NCBI GenBank assembly: GCA_902512755.1
Contig: CABXKB010000004.1
Span: forward strand, 1-64,000
Origin: an uncultured Bacteroidota bacterium
GTDB lineage: Bacteria > Bacteroidota > Bacteroidia > Flavobacteriales > Flavobacteriaceae
DNA: 64,000 nucleotides
Reading direction: 5' to 3'
Each line of letters opens with the position of its first letter. Position 1 is the stretch's first letter. Positions 14,570 through 23,266 of the stretch are shown in pieces. The notes under the pieces are model-generated. The model worked only from the letters and a program-made list of their open reading frames with translations, did no database searches and was not told the DNA's origin. Both the position numbers and the translations under genes were made by a program.

Positions 14570-14587
14570 AACTAAAACGATTTAGCT
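14570..14587. promoter_or_regulatory. Candidate LacI-family operator
   Basis: Imperfect palindrome AACTAAAA-CG-ATTTAGCT: the two 8-base arms match at six positions around a central CG, the usual form of LacI-family operators. It lies between the divergent regulator and susC, 5 bases beyond the regulator's -7 element. Confidence 0.45.
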
Positions 14588-14697
14588 CCTAAATAACGAC
14601 TTTTTTAACAATAAATTAAGAAATTCATAAAAACATGGTTATAATTGTCGTAGATTTAAACAAATCGACTATTAACTATATTAATAAATTTAACCAA

Positions 14698-17600
14698 ATG
14701 ATGAAAAAACAGTTCTTTAAAAAGTTCTTGTTTCTACTAGCATTTATGCTTAGTGCAGGAATTTACGCTCAAAACGTTACGGGTGTCGTAACGAGCGACG
14801 ATGGTCCTCTTCCAGGTGCAACAGTACTTGTTAAAGGGACAAACAGTTTTGCTACTACAGATTTTGATGGAAATTTCACCATTGAAGCTTCTCAAGGAGA
14901 TCTTTTAGTAGTATCTTTCGTAGGTTATACCACTCAAGAGGTTCCAGTTGATGGAGATCAGCTGACAATTACTCTTGCCCTTGGTAACTTGCTTGAAGAA
15001 GTTATTGTAACTACTGGTTACGGTACTCAGTCTAAGCGAGATATTACAGGTGCGGTAACTACGGTTGAAGCAGATGAATTATTATCAATACCTGCCACTA
15101 CATTCTCCCAACAATTACAGGGACGTGCTGCAGGTATTACCATTATTAACGATGCAACTCCAGGTGGTGAAGCTACCGTTCGTGTTCGTGGTTTTGGTAC
15201 TATTGGAAATAATGATCCTCTTTATGTAATTGATGGTGTTCCTACTCAATCTCAAGGAAACCTTAACCCCAATGATATTGAATCTATTCAAATATTAAAA
15301 GACGCTTCTGCATCTTCTATTTATGGAGCTCGTGCTGCAAACGGGGTTGTTATTATTACAACTAAGAAAGGAAAAGTTGGCTCTACACAAGTGTCATATA
15401 ACTCTTATTATGGATGGCAAAATGCTGCTGAAGAAGCTGTGGCATTGGATTCTGCTGGATTAGGAGAATATCTTTACCTAGCTGATTATTATGCTGGTAA
15501 AACTCCTTCTCACGGTCAGTATGCTTTTAGTGGTTCTCCTGAGAATCCTGGGGTAAGTATTCCAAATTATGTATTTCCTAGTGGAGCATCCTCAGCTAAT
15601 GAATCTTTATACTCATTAACTCCCAGTAATATTTATGCTATTACAAAATCAGCAGATACTAACTGGTGGAATGAGGTGACGCAATCAAATGCGCCTATTA
15701 CAAGCCACAATATTCAAGCTAGTGGGGCTTCTGAAAAATCTCAATATGCATTTACTGCAAACTATTTCTCTCAGGATTCACCTGTAAGATTTGTTGGGTA
15801 TGAAAGAGCTTCAATTCGTTTGAACTCTTCTACTAGAGTTTTAAATGATCGTTTGACTATAGGTGAGAATTTTACACTCTCAATGGACAATCGTAAAGGA
15901 GGGTTTGGAAATAATGGTGAACAAAATGCAGTATCTGTATCTTATAAGCACCATCCACTACTTCCTGTTTATGATATTGCTGGAAATTTTGCTGGATCTC
16001 GTGGTTTAAACTTAGGGAACAACTATAATCCTTATGCGACTTTATCTAGAAATCAAGATGACAGAAGCAAACGTTTCAGAGCTTTTGGAAGCGTTTACGC
16101 AGAGGCTAAAATTGCTGATAAGGTTACTGCAAAATCAACTTTTGGTTTTGATGTAGTAGGAAGACGTTACCTTGATATAGGTCGTCCTCAACCAGAATAT
16201 GTAGAGGGTAACTTTATTAATGGTCAGACTACTGGATTCCAAGACCAGTATCAGTGGAACTTTACAAATACTGTTAGTTATAAAGAAACATTTAGTGACG
16301 TTCATAACGTTGAGGCACTTGTTGGGGTTGAGGCTGTTGAAGCTTTTGGTCAAACATTTGCAGCTGGAAGACAACGATTCCCATTTGAATCAACAGGTAT
16401 TATCAGTTTTTTAAGTGCGGGTAATCAAGGAACATCATCAAATAACGGTTCCGCTTATTTAGATTACGCTTTGTGGTCTCAATTTGCAAAAGTTAATTAT
16501 GCTTTTGGAGACAAGTATTTAGCTCAGGTAGTTGTTCGTAATGATGCATCATCTCGTTTTAAAGCTGCAACAAACAGTGGGGTTTTCCCAGCATTTAGTG
16601 TTGGATGGAGACTTTCTGAAGAAGAATTCATGAGTGGTTTGACATTCATTGATGACTTTAAGATACGTTATGGATGGGGGCAAACTGGTAACCAAGAAAT
16701 CGGAGACTATAATGCTTATACTTCATATCAGTCTACTTCATTTAACTCTTCTTATCCTATTGACGGTAATGTTACAGCTGCAACAGCAGGATTTAACGCC
16801 GCTCAATATGGTAACCCTAATGCAAAATGGGAAACAACAACTTCAAGTAATTTTGGATTAGATGTTTCTATGTTAGATCGTAAATTAGATATAGAGTTTG
16901 ATTTATTTAGTCGAAGAACAACGGATCTTTTATTAAACGTTCCTATTGCATTCGGTGCAGGTGACGGAGGTTCTCCAGCATTAAACATTGGTGAAATGCT
17001 AAACACTGGTTTCGATCTAGGTATTAACTTTGGTGATCAAAAAGGAGATTTCGGTTATAGTATCGGAGCAAATATCTCTCAGTACAAAAATGAGATCATT
17101 CAATTAGATCAGTTCGATACACCAATTTTTGGTTACCGTTCAAGAGTTCCTTCAATGTCAATTACTGAAGTTGGATCTCCAATCTCTATGTTTTATGGAT
17201 TCGAAACAGATGGAATTTTCCAAACTCAAGCAGAAGCAGATTCACATCCAGCTTATGGAGCATATAATGCGCCTGGTAAATTTAGAATTGTTGATGTTAA
17301 TGGAGATGGGCAAATCAATGATGATGACCGTACACAAATCGGTAATCCACACCCAGATTTCACATACGGAATCAATTTAAACTTAAATTATAAGAACTTA
17401 AACTTGACTTTATTCGGAAACGGATCTCAAGGAAACGACTTATATAATTATGTACGTTACTTTGCTGACTTTAATACATTCCAGGGTAACCGTTCTGTTC
17501 GTGCACTTAGAGATGCATGGCAACCAAGTAATCCATCAGCTCCTAGAAGCCAGTGGATAGCTGCCAATCCAGATGCTACGTCACCTATTATGGATGCGAA

Positions 17601-17886
17601 TGATCAAGTTAGTAGTAGAACATCTACATACTTAATTGAAGATGGATCATATTTCCGTTTGAAAAATATCCAATTGACTTATAACTTCGGAGACGCGATT
17701 AAAGATGCACTGGGTATTGGTGGAGGATCGATCTACTTACAAGGTCAAAACTTACTTACGATAACTGATTATACTGGTACTAATCCTGAAATTCAAACAG
17801 GTGCAGATACGACATTAGGTTTCGACGGTGGTTATATGCCAGTATCTAAAACAATAATTTTAGGATTGAATCTTAATTTATTTTAA
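14698..17886 (+). CDS. SusC/RagA-family TonB-linked outer membrane transporter
   Basis: A 1062-residue outer-membrane importer. Signal peptide (MMKKQFFKKF with cleavage near IYA-Q), carboxypeptidase-regulatory-like domain at about 27-100, a linker with the SusC-typical LEEVIVTTGYGTQ, plug domain (about 115-225, containing VRGFGTIGNNDPLYVIDGVP) and a 22-strand barrel to the C-terminus. It takes up substrate with the lipoprotein encoded next door. ATG at 14698 is chosen because it gives a normal signal peptide; an in-frame ATG at 14635 would add 21 residues before it. The substrate is unknown. No hydrolase gene accompanies the pair. Confidence 0.92.
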   Translation: MMKKQFFKKFLFLLAFMLSAGIYAQNVTGVVTSDDGPLPGATVLVKGTNSFATTDFDGNFTIEASQGDLLVVSFVGYTTQEVPVDGDQLTITLALGNLLEEVIVTTGYGTQSKRDITGAVTTVEADELLSIPATTFSQQLQGRAAGITIINDATPGGEATVRVRGFGTIGNNDPLYVIDGVPTQSQGNLNPNDIESIQILKDASASSIYGARAANGVVIITTKKGKVGSTQVSYNSYYGWQNAAEEAVALDSAGLGEYLYLADYYAGKTPSHGQYAFSGSPENPGVSIPNYVFPSGASSANESLYSLTPSNIYAITKSADTNWWNEVTQSNAPITSHNIQASGASEKSQYAFTANYFSQDSPVRFVGYERASIRLNSSTRVLNDRLTIGENFTLSMDNRKGGFGNNGEQNAVSVSYKHHPLLPVYDIAGNFAGSRGLNLGNNYNPYATLSRNQDDRSKRFRAFGSVYAEAKIADKVTAKSTFGFDVVGRRYLDIGRPQPEYVEGNFINGQTTGFQDQYQWNFTNTVSYKETFSDVHNVEALVGVEAVEAFGQTFAAGRQRFPFESTGIISFLSAGNQGTSSNNGSAYLDYALWSQFAKVNYAFGDKYLAQVVVRNDASSRFKAATNSGVFPAFSVGWRLSEEEFMSGLTFIDDFKIRYGWGQTGNQEIGDYNAYTSYQSTSFNSSYPIDGNVTAATAGFNAAQYGNPNAKWETTTSSNFGLDVSMLDRKLDIEFDLFSRRTTDLLLNVPIAFGAGDGGSPALNIGEMLNTGFDLGINFGDQKGDFGYSIGANISQYKNEIIQLDQFDTPIFGYRSRVPSMSITEVGSPISMFYGFETDGIFQTQAEADSHPAYGAYNAPGKFRIVDVNGDGQINDDDRTQIGNPHPDFTYGINLNLNYKNLNLTLFGNGSQGNDLYNYVRYFADFNTFQGNRSVRALRDAWQPSNPSAPRSQWIAANPDATSPIMDANDQVSSRTSTYLIEDGSYFRLKNIQLTYNFGDAIKDALGIGGGSIYLQGQNLLTITDYTGTNPEIQTGADTTLGFDGGYMPVSKTIILGLNLNLF

Positions 17887-17905: not shown

Positions 17906-19660
17906 ATGAGAAAACTTAAATCATTATTAATCGCATCAATAGGAATCTTCGCTATTACAGTAAGCTGTAATGATGACTTCCTATTAAAAGAGCCTTTAGG
18001 CCAGATTGCGGGACCTTCACTAAATAACGCCGAAGGTGTTGAAGGGAAACTTATTGCCGCTTACCGAACCCTTTCTGGGCAAGGTATGAACGGTGGTGGT
18101 ACTTGGTACTACGATATTCACGGATGGATTTTTGGAAGTATTGCTTCCGATAACGCTGTGAAAGGAACAGATGCTGGTGACCAGCCAGAACATTCATTTA
18201 TTGAAGCGTATGACTTTACTACCTTTAATGACCACATTAAAGATAAGTGGAGATCTGTATATTGGGGTATGGCAAGAGCTAACGAAGTTATCGATGCTGT
18301 AGCAGAAGCTGCAGAAGGAGATGACCCGGTAGATTCAGGTCGTGCAGCTCAAATAATAGGTGAAGCCCGTTTTTTACGTGGTTTCCACGCTTTACAAGCT
18401 CAGTTACATTTCCGTAATCCTGCGTATGTAGATGACGCTGCTTATGATGTAAATGACGTAGAAAGCTCTAAAGTACCTAATGGTGGTCAAATCTGGGATC
18501 AAATAATTGCTGATTTTTCAGCAGCAGCAGGAGCACTTCCTGCAACTCAGGCTGATCTTGGTAGAGCTACTAGCTGGGCGGCAAAAGCTTTCTTGGCTAA
18601 GACTCACATGCACACTGGAGATGCTGGATTAATTGCTGCGGCAATTCCTGTTATGGAAGACATCGTAAACAATGGTCCATTTTCACTTGTTGAAAAGTAT
18701 GAAGACAACCACCTTGTTGCTACTCGTAACAATAAGGAGTCTATTTTCGAAATTCAGTATGCTATTTCAAGTGGTGATGACCAAAATGGTAACAAAGGAG
18801 TGGGTCTTGCTCATCCATATATATCTCCATGGGGATGTTGTGGTTTCTGGCAAGCGACTCAAGACTTAGTTGATGTACATCATACTAACGCTGATGGATT
18901 ACCATGGGTAGGTGGAGAATGGAAAACCGTTCATATCACTAACCCTAATGGAGCTGATGTTGGACAGCCTATTGGAAATCCTTCAGTTGACCCACGCTTA
19001 GATCACAATGTAGGACGTCCTGGGATTCTTTATAAGAATCACCACATAATGCAAGTAGACTATGTTCGTGATCTTACTTATGCTGGACCTTATTTCTCTA
19101 AAAAGCACGTTGCTGAGCCAGAAGCGTTCGGTGTAGGTGGTTGGGGTAATATATCTGCAAATAACTACCGTATCATGCGCTTGTCTATGGTTAAACTATG
19201 GTTAGCTGAAGCATATGTTGAAGCTGGTCGTTTAGAAGATGCTAGAAAACAAGTAAATGACATCAGAGCTCGTGCAGCGAATCCTGCAGGTTTTGTTCCT
19301 GAAGCAATTCAAGGTGGTACACGTGGTGAGTATACAACAACAGCTAATCCAGCTGCTAACTATAATATCGGCCAGTACGAAGCTGCTTGGACTAATGCAT
19401 CAGTTGCACGTACAGCAGTTAGAATGGAAACTCGTATTGAGTTTGCTATGGAAGGACACCGCTTCTTTGATCTTCAAAGGTGGGGTACAATGGGAGCTAC
19501 ACTAAACGATTATCTTTCAAGAGAATCTAGATATAGAATCTATCTTCAAGGTAAATCCTTTAGTTCTCCTAAAAACCAGTATTATCCTATCCCACAACAA
19601 GCGATTGATCGCTCATTTGTGGAGGGAGCTGCAACTTTAACACAGGATCCTAACTACTAG
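17906..19660 (+). CDS. SusD/RagB-family outer membrane lipoprotein
   Basis: A 584-residue surface lipoprotein that caps the SusC channel and binds substrate. The signal peptide ends ITVSC, so Cys21 is the likely lipidated residue. The N-terminal TPR-like part (for example ARFLRGFHALQA) and the C-terminal RagB/SusD signature (RMETRIEFAMEGHRFFDLQRWG) are both visible. It starts 19 nt after susC. A long hairpin terminator follows 21 nt after the stop. Confidence 0.93.
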   Translation: MRKLKSLLIASIGIFAITVSCNDDFLLKEPLGQIAGPSLNNAEGVEGKLIAAYRTLSGQGMNGGGTWYYDIHGWIFGSIASDNAVKGTDAGDQPEHSFIEAYDFTTFNDHIKDKWRSVYWGMARANEVIDAVAEAAEGDDPVDSGRAAQIIGEARFLRGFHALQAQLHFRNPAYVDDAAYDVNDVESSKVPNGGQIWDQIIADFSAAAGALPATQADLGRATSWAAKAFLAKTHMHTGDAGLIAAAIPVMEDIVNNGPFSLVEKYEDNHLVATRNNKESIFEIQYAISSGDDQNGNKGVGLAHPYISPWGCCGFWQATQDLVDVHHTNADGLPWVGGEWKTVHITNPNGADVGQPIGNPSVDPRLDHNVGRPGILYKNHHIMQVDYVRDLTYAGPYFSKKHVAEPEAFGVGGWGNISANNYRIMRLSMVKLWLAEAYVEAGRLEDARKQVNDIRARAANPAGFVPEAIQGGTRGEYTTTANPAANYNIGQYEAAWTNASVARTAVRMETRIEFAMEGHRFFDLQRWGTMGATLNDYLSRESRYRIYLQGKSFSSPKNQYYPIPQQAIDRSFVEGAATLTQDPNY

Positions 19661-19681
19661 TAGTTTTATCTTGTAAAGTTT

Positions 19682-19717
19682 AAAGCCATGGAGTATATTT
19701 ACTTCATGGCTTTTTTT
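19682..19717 (+). terminator. Strong intrinsic terminator after susD, overlapping the next gene's start codon
   Basis: A 14-bp stem (19682-19695 with 19700-19713, one G:T pair) around a TATT loop, followed by a run of T to 19717. The 3' arm contains the ATG at 19706 that begins the downstream lipoprotein gene, so termination and translation initiation of the next gene are physically linked. Confidence 0.85.
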
Positions 19718-22700
19718 ATTAAATCATTTTGTAAGTCTGCAATAACACTAGGTTTTTTAGCTGTATTATTTGCTTCATGTAACTCAAGAGAGTCTACTTT
19801 ATTTAAGCTACTTGATCCTAGTGTCACTGGGATAGATTTTGAAAATACTATTACAGAAACAAAGGACTTAAATATCCTCACTAATGAATATATTTTTAAT
19901 GGAGGGGGAGTAGCAGTTTCAGATTTTAATAAAGACGGACTTCCCGATCTTTTTTTTACTGGAAATATGGTTTCCAATCAATTGTATCTAAATCAAGGAA
20001 ACTTAAAATTCAAAAATATTACTAAAAATGCCAAACTAATTTCTGATAGCTATTGGTCTACAGGGGTAGCTGTTGCTGATGTTAATGCAGATGGCTGGAT
20101 GGATATTTATATAGCCGTTGCCATGATAGATGAAAATCGTAATAATCGACTTTATATTCATCAGGGCTTAGACAAAAATGGTATTCCTTATTTTAAAGAA
20201 GCAGCAAAAACCTATGGCATCGCCGACCCTGGAAATAGTATGGCAGCTAGCTTTATTGATTTTGATGGTGATGGATATTTGGATTTATATGTAGTAAACA
20301 ATGAGCAGAATGAAAGTATACCTACTAATTATCGAAAAAAAGTGACTGATGGTAGTGCTCCAAGTAATGATAGGCTATATAAAAATAATGGAGATAATAG
20401 TTTTACCGATGTAACACTAGAAGCGGGAATAAACATTGAAGGTTTTGGATTGAGTATAACCCCGCTTGATGTTAATAAAGATCAGTGGGTAGATCTTTTC
20501 ATAACAAACGATTACTTAACTAATGATTTATTGTACATCAATCAACAAGATGGAACTTTTAAAAATGAAATTGATGAACATCTTTTACATCAAAGTAAAT
20601 TCTCAATGGGTTCAGATGCAGGAGATTTTAATAATGACGGTTATACAGATATAGTTTCACTAGATATGTTAGGTGAAAGTCATGAACGACGTAAAACAAC
20701 TATTGCTAAAAGTTCATTCTTTCAAAATGTATTAAATAAAAAATGGGGTTATCAAAGCCAACATATGCGTAATATGTTGTTCAAAAACAATGGCTCCGAG
20801 CTTCCTTTTATCGAAATAGGACAATATGCAGGCGTTTATCAAACCGATTGGAGTTGGTCTCCATTATTTGCTGATTTAGATTATGACGGACAAAAAGATT
20901 TATTAATAACTAATGGATTTCCAAGAGACATTACCGATATGGACTTTGCAAACTATCGTTTAGATGCTGGTCCTTACACACCCGTTGAGAAACTTTTAGA
21001 CTCAATCCCTATTGTAAAAATTCCAAATTATGCTTACAGAAATAATGGAAATTTAACTTTTGAAGATAAAGGGAAGGATTGGGGTTTAAAAATTTCATCT
21101 TTTTCAAATGGAGCGGTATTTAGTGACTTAGATCTAGATGGTGACTTAGATTATGTGGTAAATAACATAAACGATAAAGCTTTCGTTTTTGAAAATAACC
21201 TTATGAATACTGAATTGCCTCCTAACTATATTCAATTAGAACTTAGAGGTGATTCTAAAAATCCTAATGCCCTTGGCGCAAAAATTGTTATGCGTTATTC
21301 CAATGGGGATTTCCAATTTCAAGAACAACAAATTTCTCGAGGATATATGTCATCGTTGGATCCGGTTATCTATTTTGGCTTAGGATTAAAAAAGGAATTA
21401 AGCTCTATTGAAGTTTTGTGGCCAAATGGATCATTAACTAGAATTAAAAAGCCAGAGATAAATAAAAGACATTTATTAAATCAAAAGAATGCTGAAAAGG
21501 GATTAGTTCTTGATTTTCCATTTATAGAGCAAAAAAAAGATTTTCCATATAAGGAAGTGTCATCTCAATACAACATCAATTATATTCACCAGGAAAAAAA
21601 CGTTCAAGATTTTTTTAAACAACGCCTACTTCCACACAAGCTTTCTCAAAATGGTCCCTGTCTTGCTATAGGAGACATTAATGGAGATGGAAATGATGAC
21701 TTTATTGTTGGAAGTTCTTCGGTTTATTCTCCGAGAGTTTACTTGCAAAATTCCAAAAGCACTTTTGATTCTAAAGACTTATTTGATTCTAAGTATGATA
21801 AACGTTATGAGGTAGAGAGTATGACACTTTTTGATGCTGATCAAGATGGAGATTTAGATCTTTATCTTGTTTCGGGTGGGAATCAGTTTGAAGCAGGATC
21901 AGAACTCTATAAGGATCGCTTGTTAGTTAACGATGGCTATGGAAATTTTGAGAATGATTTAACACGAGTGCCCAATATAAATGCTAATGGGTGTGTTGTG
22001 CGACCAATTGATTATGACTTAGATGGTGATATTGACTTGTTTATTGGAGGTCATAACAAACCCGGGGCATACCCTTTGGGCGATCCAAGTTACTTGTTAA
22101 ATAATAATAATGGTTATTTTGAAGATATTACAAATTTAGTTTTACCTAATTTAGATCAGTTTGGTTTGGTTACCGATGCTCAGTGGGCAGATTTAAATCA
22201 AGATGGAAGAGAAGATTTAATTCTAGTTGGTGAATACAGTCCTGTAGCTGTTTTTTTTAATTTAAATGAAGGTTTCAAACGCCTTTCTTCTAAGACCTTG
22301 GATGAAGCGACCGGTTTATGGCGTTCCATTGAAGTTGTTGATTTTGATGAGGACGGAGACTTGGACTTCCTTTTAGGGAATCTGGGAAAAAACAATATGC
22401 TTTCTATTTCTACTGAAACACCTTTAATAATTTCTACAAGAGATATAGATAAAAATGGAAGTGTGGATCCACTTATATTTAATTCACAACAAAACAAGAA
22501 AGGTTATTGGGATATGTTTCCTGTTCAATTTTGGGATAATTTAACACAACAGAGTCCTTTATTTCGTCAAGAGTTTAGTAGTTACCACGCTTTTTCAAAA
22601 GCTAACATGGATTATTACCAAGAAAATGGCTTTTTGAATAGTGACAGTTTATTATCAGCAAAACACGATACTTCTAAATGGATTGAGAATTTGGGTTTAG

Positions 22701-23026
22701 GGAAATTTAAGTTAAACACTCTCCCAGACCCTCTTCAATTAGGTCCAATAAATGATTTTCTAGTCTTGGGAACAGCCTCTAATCGATCAATTTTTATGAT
22801 AGGCAACGATTTTGGCGGCCCCCCTTTTGAAGGAAATTTTGATGCTTTTCAGGGAAGTATAATGCAGTGGAATTATGGTAATAAAAAAGTTTTTAGCGCA
22901 CAAGATACAGGATTTCACGTCTTTGGTGATGCCAAAGAAATTAGTAGTATTCGCATGCAAAATGGAAAGACACTGATTCTTGTAACTCAAAACAAAAGTA
23001 GATTACTTGCTTTTGAAAAACAGTAG
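19706..23026 (+). CDS. FG-GAP/VCBS repeat lipoprotein with central UnbV (ASPIC) domain
   Basis: A 1106-residue exported protein. The signal peptide ends LFASC, giving a lipidated Cys near residue 25. Repeats of the calcium-binding DxDxDGxxD kind form two groups: seven before the middle (for example DFNKDGLPD, DVNADGWMD, DFDGDGYLD) and six after it (DINGDGNDD, DADQDGDLD, DYDLDGDID and others). Between them, at about 500-600, is an UnbV/ASPIC-like segment (GYMSSLDPVIYFGLG...WPNG). The layout suggests two beta-propellers on the cell surface. The ATG at 19706 is preferred over 19688, which adds six residues and lies in the terminator's other arm. It probably assists the SusC/D pair; its binding target is unknown. 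Confidence 0.82.
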   Translation: MAFFIKSFCKSAITLGFLAVLFASCNSRESTLFKLLDPSVTGIDFENTITETKDLNILTNEYIFNGGGVAVSDFNKDGLPDLFFTGNMVSNQLYLNQGNLKFKNITKNAKLISDSYWSTGVAVADVNADGWMDIYIAVAMIDENRNNRLYIHQGLDKNGIPYFKEAAKTYGIADPGNSMAASFIDFDGDGYLDLYVVNNEQNESIPTNYRKKVTDGSAPSNDRLYKNNGDNSFTDVTLEAGINIEGFGLSITPLDVNKDQWVDLFITNDYLTNDLLYINQQDGTFKNEIDEHLLHQSKFSMGSDAGDFNNDGYTDIVSLDMLGESHERRKTTIAKSSFFQNVLNKKWGYQSQHMRNMLFKNNGSELPFIEIGQYAGVYQTDWSWSPLFADLDYDGQKDLLITNGFPRDITDMDFANYRLDAGPYTPVEKLLDSIPIVKIPNYAYRNNGNLTFEDKGKDWGLKISSFSNGAVFSDLDLDGDLDYVVNNINDKAFVFENNLMNTELPPNYIQLELRGDSKNPNALGAKIVMRYSNGDFQFQEQQISRGYMSSLDPVIYFGLGLKKELSSIEVLWPNGSLTRIKKPEINKRHLLNQKNAEKGLVLDFPFIEQKKDFPYKEVSSQYNINYIHQEKNVQDFFKQRLLPHKLSQNGPCLAIGDINGDGNDDFIVGSSSVYSPRVYLQNSKSTFDSKDLFDSKYDKRYEVESMTLFDADQDGDLDLYLVSGGNQFEAGSELYKDRLLVNDGYGNFENDLTRVPNINANGCVVRPIDYDLDGDIDLFIGGHNKPGAYPLGDPSYLLNNNNGYFEDITNLVLPNLDQFGLVTDAQWADLNQDGREDLILVGEYSPVAVFFNLNEGFKRLSSKTLDEATGLWRSIEVVDFDEDGDLDFLLGNLGKNNMLSISTETPLIISTRDIDKNGSVDPLIFNSQQNKKGYWDMFPVQFWDNLTQQSPLFRQEFSSYHAFSKANMDYYQENGFLNSDSLLSAKHDTSKWIENLGLGKFKLNTLPDPLQLGPINDFLVLGTASNRSIFMIGNDFGGPPFEGNFDAFQGSIMQWNYGNKKVFSAQDTGFHVFGDAKEISSIRMQNGKTLILVTQNKSRLLAFEKQ

Positions 23027-23133: not shown

Positions 23134-23220
23134 ATGAAACTTCTTAAACTATCTTTTTTTGTTTTTATTCTGCTTCATTTTTCGTGTACCGAGAATAATG
23201 ATATTTCATGTTGTGAGTAA
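23134..23220 (+). CDS. Putative 28-residue micro-lipoprotein
   Basis: A short frame encoding MKLLKLSFFVFILLHFSC followed by ten residues ending SCCE. The first 17 residues look like a textbook lipoprotein signal peptide (two Lys, hydrophobic core, HFSC lipobox), leaving a mature peptide of only 11 residues with three cysteines. It lies in the 240-base gap between the FG-GAP lipoprotein and the MFS permease on the same strand. It may be a genuine tiny lipoprotein or the remains of a longer gene; no continuation in other frames was recognised in the remaining 46 bases before the permease. Confidence 0.4.
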   Translation: MKLLKLSFFVFILLHFSCTENNDISCCE

Positions 23221-23266
23221 AATTCAAACAAAAACAAAACTCTAAAGGTCTTATATCATAATTATT

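Follow-up and report, generated by a model that had tools for sequence, protein, structure and literature searches.

The balance of probability favours a dual role for positions 19671 to 19717 of the window (the whole stretch of DNA analysed, 64,000 nucleotides): this element terminates the susCD transcription unit and would also encode a separate promoter for the next gene, which specifies an FG-GAP lipoprotein. Promoter activity, and a leaderless start at an ATG within the terminator hairpin, are predicted from conserved sequence and spacing.

Locus and neighbouring genes

The genes of the locus and a palindrome upstream of them were as follows.

14572 to 14585, forward strand: palindrome CTAAAACGATTTAG between the LacI-family gene and susC, a possible operator
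14635 to 17886, forward strand: susC-like ORF (TIGR04056), translation start perhaps 14698 or 14701, judged by eye
17906 to 19660, forward strand: susD-like gene (PF07980, PF14322), stop codon ending at 19660, closed by the terminator
19706 to 23026, forward strand: FG-GAP/ASPIC lipoprotein gene of 1,106 codons (Pfam PF13517, FG-GAP_3; PF01839; PF07593, UnbV_ASPIC)

A literature search for FG-GAP with SusC, SusD and lipoprotein found none. Between the FG-GAP gene and an MFS gene, positions 23135 to 23221 of the window hold a 28-codon ORF resembling a mini-lipoprotein (MKLLKLSFFVFILLHFSCTENNDISCCE, translated by eye).

The LacI-family gene is divergent to susC. The palindrome CTAAAACGATTTAG had a single perfect match in the window, before susC; with up to two mismatches it occurred 3 times against 4.76 expected, not above chance. 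No site of this type was present at the susD/lipoprotein junction (19706), and a stricter 16-nt palindrome test gave none at any of the three places scanned. The exact sequence was found in a stretch of the sister genome G001 (L125) and not in those of genomes G031 (L243) or G010 (L254). The palindrome is a weak candidate for a LacI-type operator. That the lipoprotein gene escapes a LacI-type control of susCD is only a guess, because the palindrome was absent from the stretches of two other genomes and no such site lay at the junction.

Structure and conservation of the terminator

The susD-like gene is followed by a hairpin and a T run.

19682 to 19713, forward strand: predicted intrinsic terminator hairpin of susCD, 14 pairs (one G-U) and a loop of 4, AAAGCCATGGAGTA-TATT-TACTTCATGGCTTT
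19711 to 19717, forward strand: terminator T run of seven T, the first three pairing with 5' A residues; 19711 to 19716 are invariant in 18 junctions

Eight terminator-like sites were found in the 18 kb scanned, a number not above chance (11.0 in shuffles), and the hairpin had the longest stem among them (14 pairs vs 6 or fewer). The RNA fold z-score of the hairpin was -5.6, and 0 of 200 shuffles were equally stable. An Rfam scan of the whole window gave no family at gathering score.

The lipoprotein was searched for in 38 genomes of the genus. Eighteen orthologous junctions were obtained (L001-L017 and L019, the window's genome included); at least four further orthologs gave no junction because a contig end interrupts them (G014, G026, G454 and, as a C-terminal fragment, G024), and in a near relative (L031, 86%) the contig stops within the lipoprotein gene. 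The hairpin and T run occupied the same place in all 18 junctions. In the alignment (18 rows, 15 distinct), 99.5% of cells were paired and 9 of the 14 pairs had changed on both sides. Neither covariation measure was reached in any of 500 shuffles, and slid versions of the alignment dropped to 41-61% paired. The earlier note had described a 14-bp stem with a T run closing the susCD unit and had proposed comparing related junctions for conserved pairing; the stem proved strong by its fold score, and the comparison returned a hairpin with compensatory changes throughout the set. A stable stem-loop followed by a T run at a gene end, its stem kept by selection as the double changes indicate, is what is expected of an intrinsic terminator, and positions 19682 to 19717 are almost certainly one, with transcript 3' ends predicted there.

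Outside the genus, a terminator was present at the same junction in 37 of 62 loci with a co-directional upstream gene, in a set with automatic starts, upstream genes unchecked as SusD and phyla beyond Bacteroidota included. These remained from 80 loci once 8 cut loci, 1 lacking an ATG and 9 lacking a co-directional upstream gene had been set aside. A DNA search across the family, run at E up to 10, hit 397 of 397 genomes, and its matches are therefore mostly chance; two matches in another genus (L133 and L134) were 76-78% over the susD end.

A promoter-like box in the hairpin loop

In Flavobacterium johnsoniae the -7 element is TAHHTTTG at -12 to -5 (PMC6847099). A similar arrangement is superimposed on the hairpin.

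19671 to 19673, forward strand: TTG, a -33-like element whose distance upstream of the box is 20 bp here and 19-20 bp across all 16 box-bearing orthologs
19694 to 19701, forward strand: promoter -7-like box TATATTTA (consensus TAHHTTTG) across loop and inner stem, present in 16 of 18 orthologs

The hairpin centre, TA(T)(A/C/T)TTT(A/G), was kept in these 16 while the outer stem drifted by compensatory change. The seven positions T-12 A-11 H H T-8 T-7 T-6 are represented in the window by TATATTT at 19694 to 19700, with the same pattern in 16 of 18, and the weak element (TTG or TTTG about 20 bp upstream) accompanied every box. At -5, A was present in 12 of the 16 box-bearing orthologs, the window included, and G in 4; because of A rather than G at this position, the box is described as working like a sigma-A promoter and not as a member of the consensus. 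The remaining two junctions, L015 and L019, kept the stem and had no box, no TTG-box pair and no promoter that could be found, though the gene persists; they group together in an unrooted protein tree (support 0.943).

Among the 16 junctions, which were chosen for holding the box, Fitch parsimony assigned 0 changes to each of the five consensus positions, and the box varied only at -9 and -5; over all 18, box positions change 1-2 times each. At 76 four-fold sites of susD the mean was 3.66 changes, and none had 0. Part of the box conservation could be structural, since the two inner base pairs belong to stem and box alike and the +1 purine is itself a paired position. The predicted +1 was a purine, with a pyrimidine before it, in all 14 junctions examined (L005, L006, L015 and L019 left out), and the predicted leaders were 13-30 nt in 12 of the 14 orthologs worked out. 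Within 300 nt upstream, TAHHTTTG other than the loop box was absent except in L009, where it lies upstream of the hairpin; L012 has a second A-ended box outside the hairpin, 4 nt before the ATG. A scan for sigma-70-type promoters was uninformative (72 sites vs 66.4 expected in shuffles).

The loop box is thus quite probably a flavobacterial promoter box, as its conserved sequence and spacing suggest. The earlier note had assumed that the lipoprotein gene depends on read-through from susCD; a box conserved in 16 of 18 junctions predicts a separate RNA instead.

Box statistics in the genus

Box frequencies were determined in a motif sample of 1.264 Mb, comprising samples of genomes G001, G031 and G010 (L111-L130, L231-L270) and the window. 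Boxes ending 0-29 nt before the first ATG were counted over 284 tandem gaps of at least 40 nt. TAHHTTTG was found 53 times (antisense strand, 1; column shuffles, 6.1). TAHHTTTA was found 49 times, vs 22 antisense and 21.4 in shuffles, an approximately 2.3-fold enrichment. Boxes ending in T were not enriched (23 vs 30 and 21.6), nor were those ending in C (8 vs 8 and 7.6).

Over all gaps, box-ATG distances were spread broadly around 12-29 nt, with an additional peak at 4 nt. The 4-nt spacing was shared by 12 G-boxes and 11 A-boxes, with 10 more A-boxes at 3 nt. The combined 23 at 4 nt compare with a mean of 6.75 for the other distances from 0 to 12 (P = 7e-7, in a test chosen post hoc, with cases that are not all independent: a single genome of the three supplied 8 of the 12 G-boxes, and two of the 11 A-boxes seem to be orthologs). 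The susD/lipoprotein locus is itself absent from this peak because its first in-frame ATG is that of the 5' arm. Some proteins of the 4-nt class, for example a P-loop kinase and an oxidoreductase, seem by eye to begin where their families begin, and on that account the class looks truly leaderless in the genus samples.

The window matches this peak: exactly 4 nt separate the last base of its box (19701) from the first base of the ATG (19706). Probable promoters of F. johnsoniae have 4-5 nt from box to transcription start, and leaders in that species are mostly longer than 10 nt (PMC6847099). In F. psychrophilum, which has this box too, the median leader is 24 nt long and 5.5% of mapped mRNAs are leaderless (PMC9723704).

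Start codons at the junction

Two ATG codons lie in the hairpin, as the earlier note had observed: one at 19706 in the 3' arm and an alternative at 19688 in the 5' arm. Both are in frame with the lipoprotein ORF, and by eye they are the only in-frame ATG, GTG or TTG codons before the lipobox.

19706 to 19708, forward strand: ATG in the 3' arm, the predicted +1 and putative leaderless start, spaced exactly 4 nt from the box

A start inside the 3' arm was seen in 2 of the 18 orthologs, the window and its sister genome G001 (85% identical protein). The ATG of the remaining 16 lies 5-22 nt beyond the stem. Likewise, in the 1.264-Mb sample the first in-frame ATG was inside the hairpin in 2 of 27 terminators that precede a co-directional gene, namely the window and its G001 counterpart. 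Past the hairpin, the window has ATT where L008 has ATG one alignment column off, and AAG in the columns of the L013 ATG, in a gappy region of the alignment.

In a fold of the read-through RNA the unpaired probability of the start codon was 0.0, in agreement with the earlier proposal that such transcripts carry a start locked in a hairpin. The further suggestion that the buried start could be a control point was not supported: in 16 of 18 orthologs the start is downstream of the hairpin, an outcome that the earlier note had itself named as refuting. An attenuator that sequesters the start codon was accordingly rejected, since a buried start is not conserved in relatives (2 of 18). In a fold of RNA 19706 to 19760, the A, U and G of the start codon were unpaired at 0.91, 0.89 and 0.63; in the longer RNA 19706 to 19800 the G was mostly paired (0.05), which counts against a fully open start. 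A leaderless start at 19706 is given about an even chance.

In L009, L010 and L012, CATGG is also present in the 3' arm, where by eye its reading frame ends after 6-8 codons. The predicted +1 in these is the A of that ATG, and a leaderless mini-ORF upstream of the lipoprotein gene is possible.

Other terminators and FG-GAP junctions

In 61 stretches of the 1.264-Mb sample, 42 terminators were found downstream of genes. TAHHTTT[GA] lay inside the hairpin of 5 of the 42 (antisense, 1 of 42). The susD/lipoprotein locus accounted for four of these five, one in each of its four genomes, and the fifth (1 of the 38 other terminators) lay between convergent genes. Among 16 sampled co-directional terminators with an ATG within 60 nt, an overlapping box was present in 4: two at the susD/lipoprotein locus, one at an FG-GAP junction and one before another gene. 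The window and L125 were among the 16 and were scored as boxless, since in both the 5'-arm ATG comes first. By the scan settings used, intrinsic terminators look scarce in the genus sample.

Forty other FG-GAP junctions of the genus were fetched; L230 was dropped for want of a start, and 39 were used, with 10 starts set by eye. A terminator was present in 30 of the 39. A G- or A-box overlapped the hairpin or T run in 17 of these 30, lay elsewhere in 6 and was absent from 7; in two of the 17 (L198 and L199) the overlap is confined to the 5' edge of the hairpin. Of the 9 junctions without a terminator, 2 had a box. Shuffling the terminator-to-start stretch gave a mean of 5.1 overlaps in 30 (maximum 10 in 500 runs) vs the 17 observed, and for G-boxes alone 2.4 vs 11 observed, in junctions that are related to one another and hence not independent.

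A second FG-GAP group of the genus (L204, L205, L206, L215, L220 and others) has a T run that passes directly into TATTTTTG or TATTTTTA and so serves as a -7 box as well (TTTTTTTATTTTTG); the ATG follows 11-16 nt later, and the overlap is commoner than in shuffles. The order of the signals is reversed in L198, L199 and L213, where the box TAAATTTG comes just before a hairpin of the predicted leader, itself 5-6 nt ahead of the ATG.

Counting G-boxes only, an overlap with the terminator occurred in 1 of 37 loci outside the genus, vs 11 of 30 within it. Four Cyclobacterium loci have a box (TATATTTG) 21 nt before the ATG and 76-106 nt after the hairpin. From these arrangements we infer that compaction merged terminator and promoter signals in the genus.

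Alternative explanations

Three other readings of the junction were weighed. The lipoprotein might be made only by the rare polymerases that read through, the hairpin-locked start then setting a low ratio of lipoprotein to SusCD. The strong terminator and the fully paired start of the read-through RNA fit this account, and L015 and L019, which have the terminator and no recognisable promoter, are places where read-through could operate. It is nevertheless distinctly unlikely, given that the start is outside the hairpin in 16 of 18 orthologs, that the loop sequence is conserved beyond the needs of pairing, and that 23 of the 30 other FG-GAP junctions with a terminator have a G- or A-box within 40 nt of the start. 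Another proposal is that the hairpin is a plain terminator, its box a by-product of an inherited A+T-rich hairpin, the promoter being of another sigma class or located within susD. Chance often produces A-ended boxes where DNA is rich in A+T, and an SM5-like TAnnTTGY match, which includes the TTG, precedes the hairpin in 4 of 18 junctions (TATCTTGT in L001 and L002, TAACTTGT in L010 and L012). That match is absent from the other 14, however, and would place the hairpin in the leader; a box inside a hairpin is rare elsewhere (1 of 38), and the unpaired loop residues T-8 and T-7 never change in 16 genomes whereas four-fold sites average 3.66 changes. A plain terminator is therefore unlikely.

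The remaining alternative keeps the hairpin promoter and moves translation to the ATT at 19718, after a 12-nt leader, in place of ATG 19706. L008, with a 13-nt leader, has its ATG at nearly the same place, one column off, and, judged by eye, the lipoprotein signal peptide of a protein begun at 19718 would be short and contain K. ATT start codons are very rare, however, and an in-frame ATG already stands at the peak leaderless spacing, which makes this reading very improbable. A terminator that carries the promoter of the next gene is the reading followed below.

Proposed mechanism

In RNA arriving from susCD the element would act as an intrinsic terminator. As DNA, the TTG at 19671, a 20-bp spacer through the 5' arm and the -7 box TATATTTA in the loop would form the promoter of the next gene. 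RNA polymerase starting at the loop box would begin at about A19706. In most relatives the resulting leader would run from the 3' arm, across the T run, to a downstream ATG. The lineage of the window has no such downstream ATG, and the CATGG of its 3' arm would supply an AUG exactly at the predicted +1, giving a leaderless mRNA.

An RNA begun at 19706 would be without the 5' arm, so the hairpin could not bury its start codon; susCD read-through RNA would carry the same start paired. With its own promoter, and an open start as against the paired one of read-through RNA, the lipoprotein would be insulated from susCD in both transcription and translation, and such an insulating role is what we infer for the element. 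More speculatively, a polymerase that stays on the DNA once it has terminated could enter the overlapping promoter anew. The 7-T run from +6 might cause slippage at initiation.

The complete proposal is a base-for-base merger of terminator and promoter: a stem kept as RNA, a loop kept as a DNA -7 box and, in one lineage, a leaderless start in the 3' arm such that only the new transcript is translatable, the merger recurring at SusCD/FG-GAP junctions in two ways (a loop box or a T-run box). Its chance of being right in full is put slightly below even.

If the proposal is true, an operon end, the next promoter and a start codon are fitted into about 45 bases of a small genome, and the junction is a natural filter through which the gene's own leaderless RNA can be translated and read-through RNA cannot. 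It would also extend terminator-promoter overlap from operons such as tufB-secE to SusCD loci and offer a testable place for the recycling of polymerase from terminator to promoter. For annotation and for Term-seq and TSS pipelines there is a warning: a start codon within a terminator is not necessarily a mistake or an attenuator. Here the start codon in the arm probably opens a message of its own and is not locked away.

Comparison with known systems

The junction resembles rho-independent terminators in its G+C-containing stem, short loop, T run, position at the end of a unit and compensatory change. Unlike the usual terminator of this kind, its loop has a conserved promoter-like sequence and its 3' arm a start codon. 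The resemblance to the Bacteroidetes sigma-A/sigma-ABfr promoter (-7 TAnnTTTG, -33 TTTG) as described in PMC6847099, PMC9723704 and PMC7366714 lies in the shape of the box, the TTG 20 bp upstream and the distance to the start; unlike that consensus, the window's box ends in A and not G, and spacer and box are common to the terminator stem-loop. As in the leaderless mRNAs reported for Flavobacterium psychrophilum (PMC9723704), an AUG stands at the predicted +1, 4 nt after a -7 box. The junction AUG differs from that of an ordinary leaderless mRNA in being also part of the upstream operon's terminator, and its 5' end is a predicted one.

Single-molecule work describes polymerase that stays on the DNA after termination and restarts nearby (PMC6978380, PMC11347151). 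The junction is like the terminator-proximal promoters used for recycling in those accounts, in that a promoter lies by a terminator from which post-termination polymerase could restart; unlike them, the two signals here share bases, and recycling at this site is speculation.

A further parallel is the tufB-secE terminator-promoter overlap of Salmonella, which is reported to regulate expression and to lower fitness when interrupted (PMC7055797, citing Brandis et al. 2019); inter-operon overlaps of this type are described for other Salmonella operons too (PMC7055797). In both cases the end of one transcription unit overlaps the next promoter, which is a predicted one here. The junction differs from tufB-secE as described there in having the -7 box in the hairpin loop with a stem that covaries around it and, in one lineage, a start codon in the 3' arm at the predicted +1, in a comparison made at the level of whole transcription signals. 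A -7 box in a terminator loop was described in none of the paper titles found, in a search judged mostly by title and mostly outside subscription journals. Terminator-promoter overlap is known as a kind; the variant proposed here has its box in the loop of a covarying stem, together with a 3'-arm start codon at the predicted +1.
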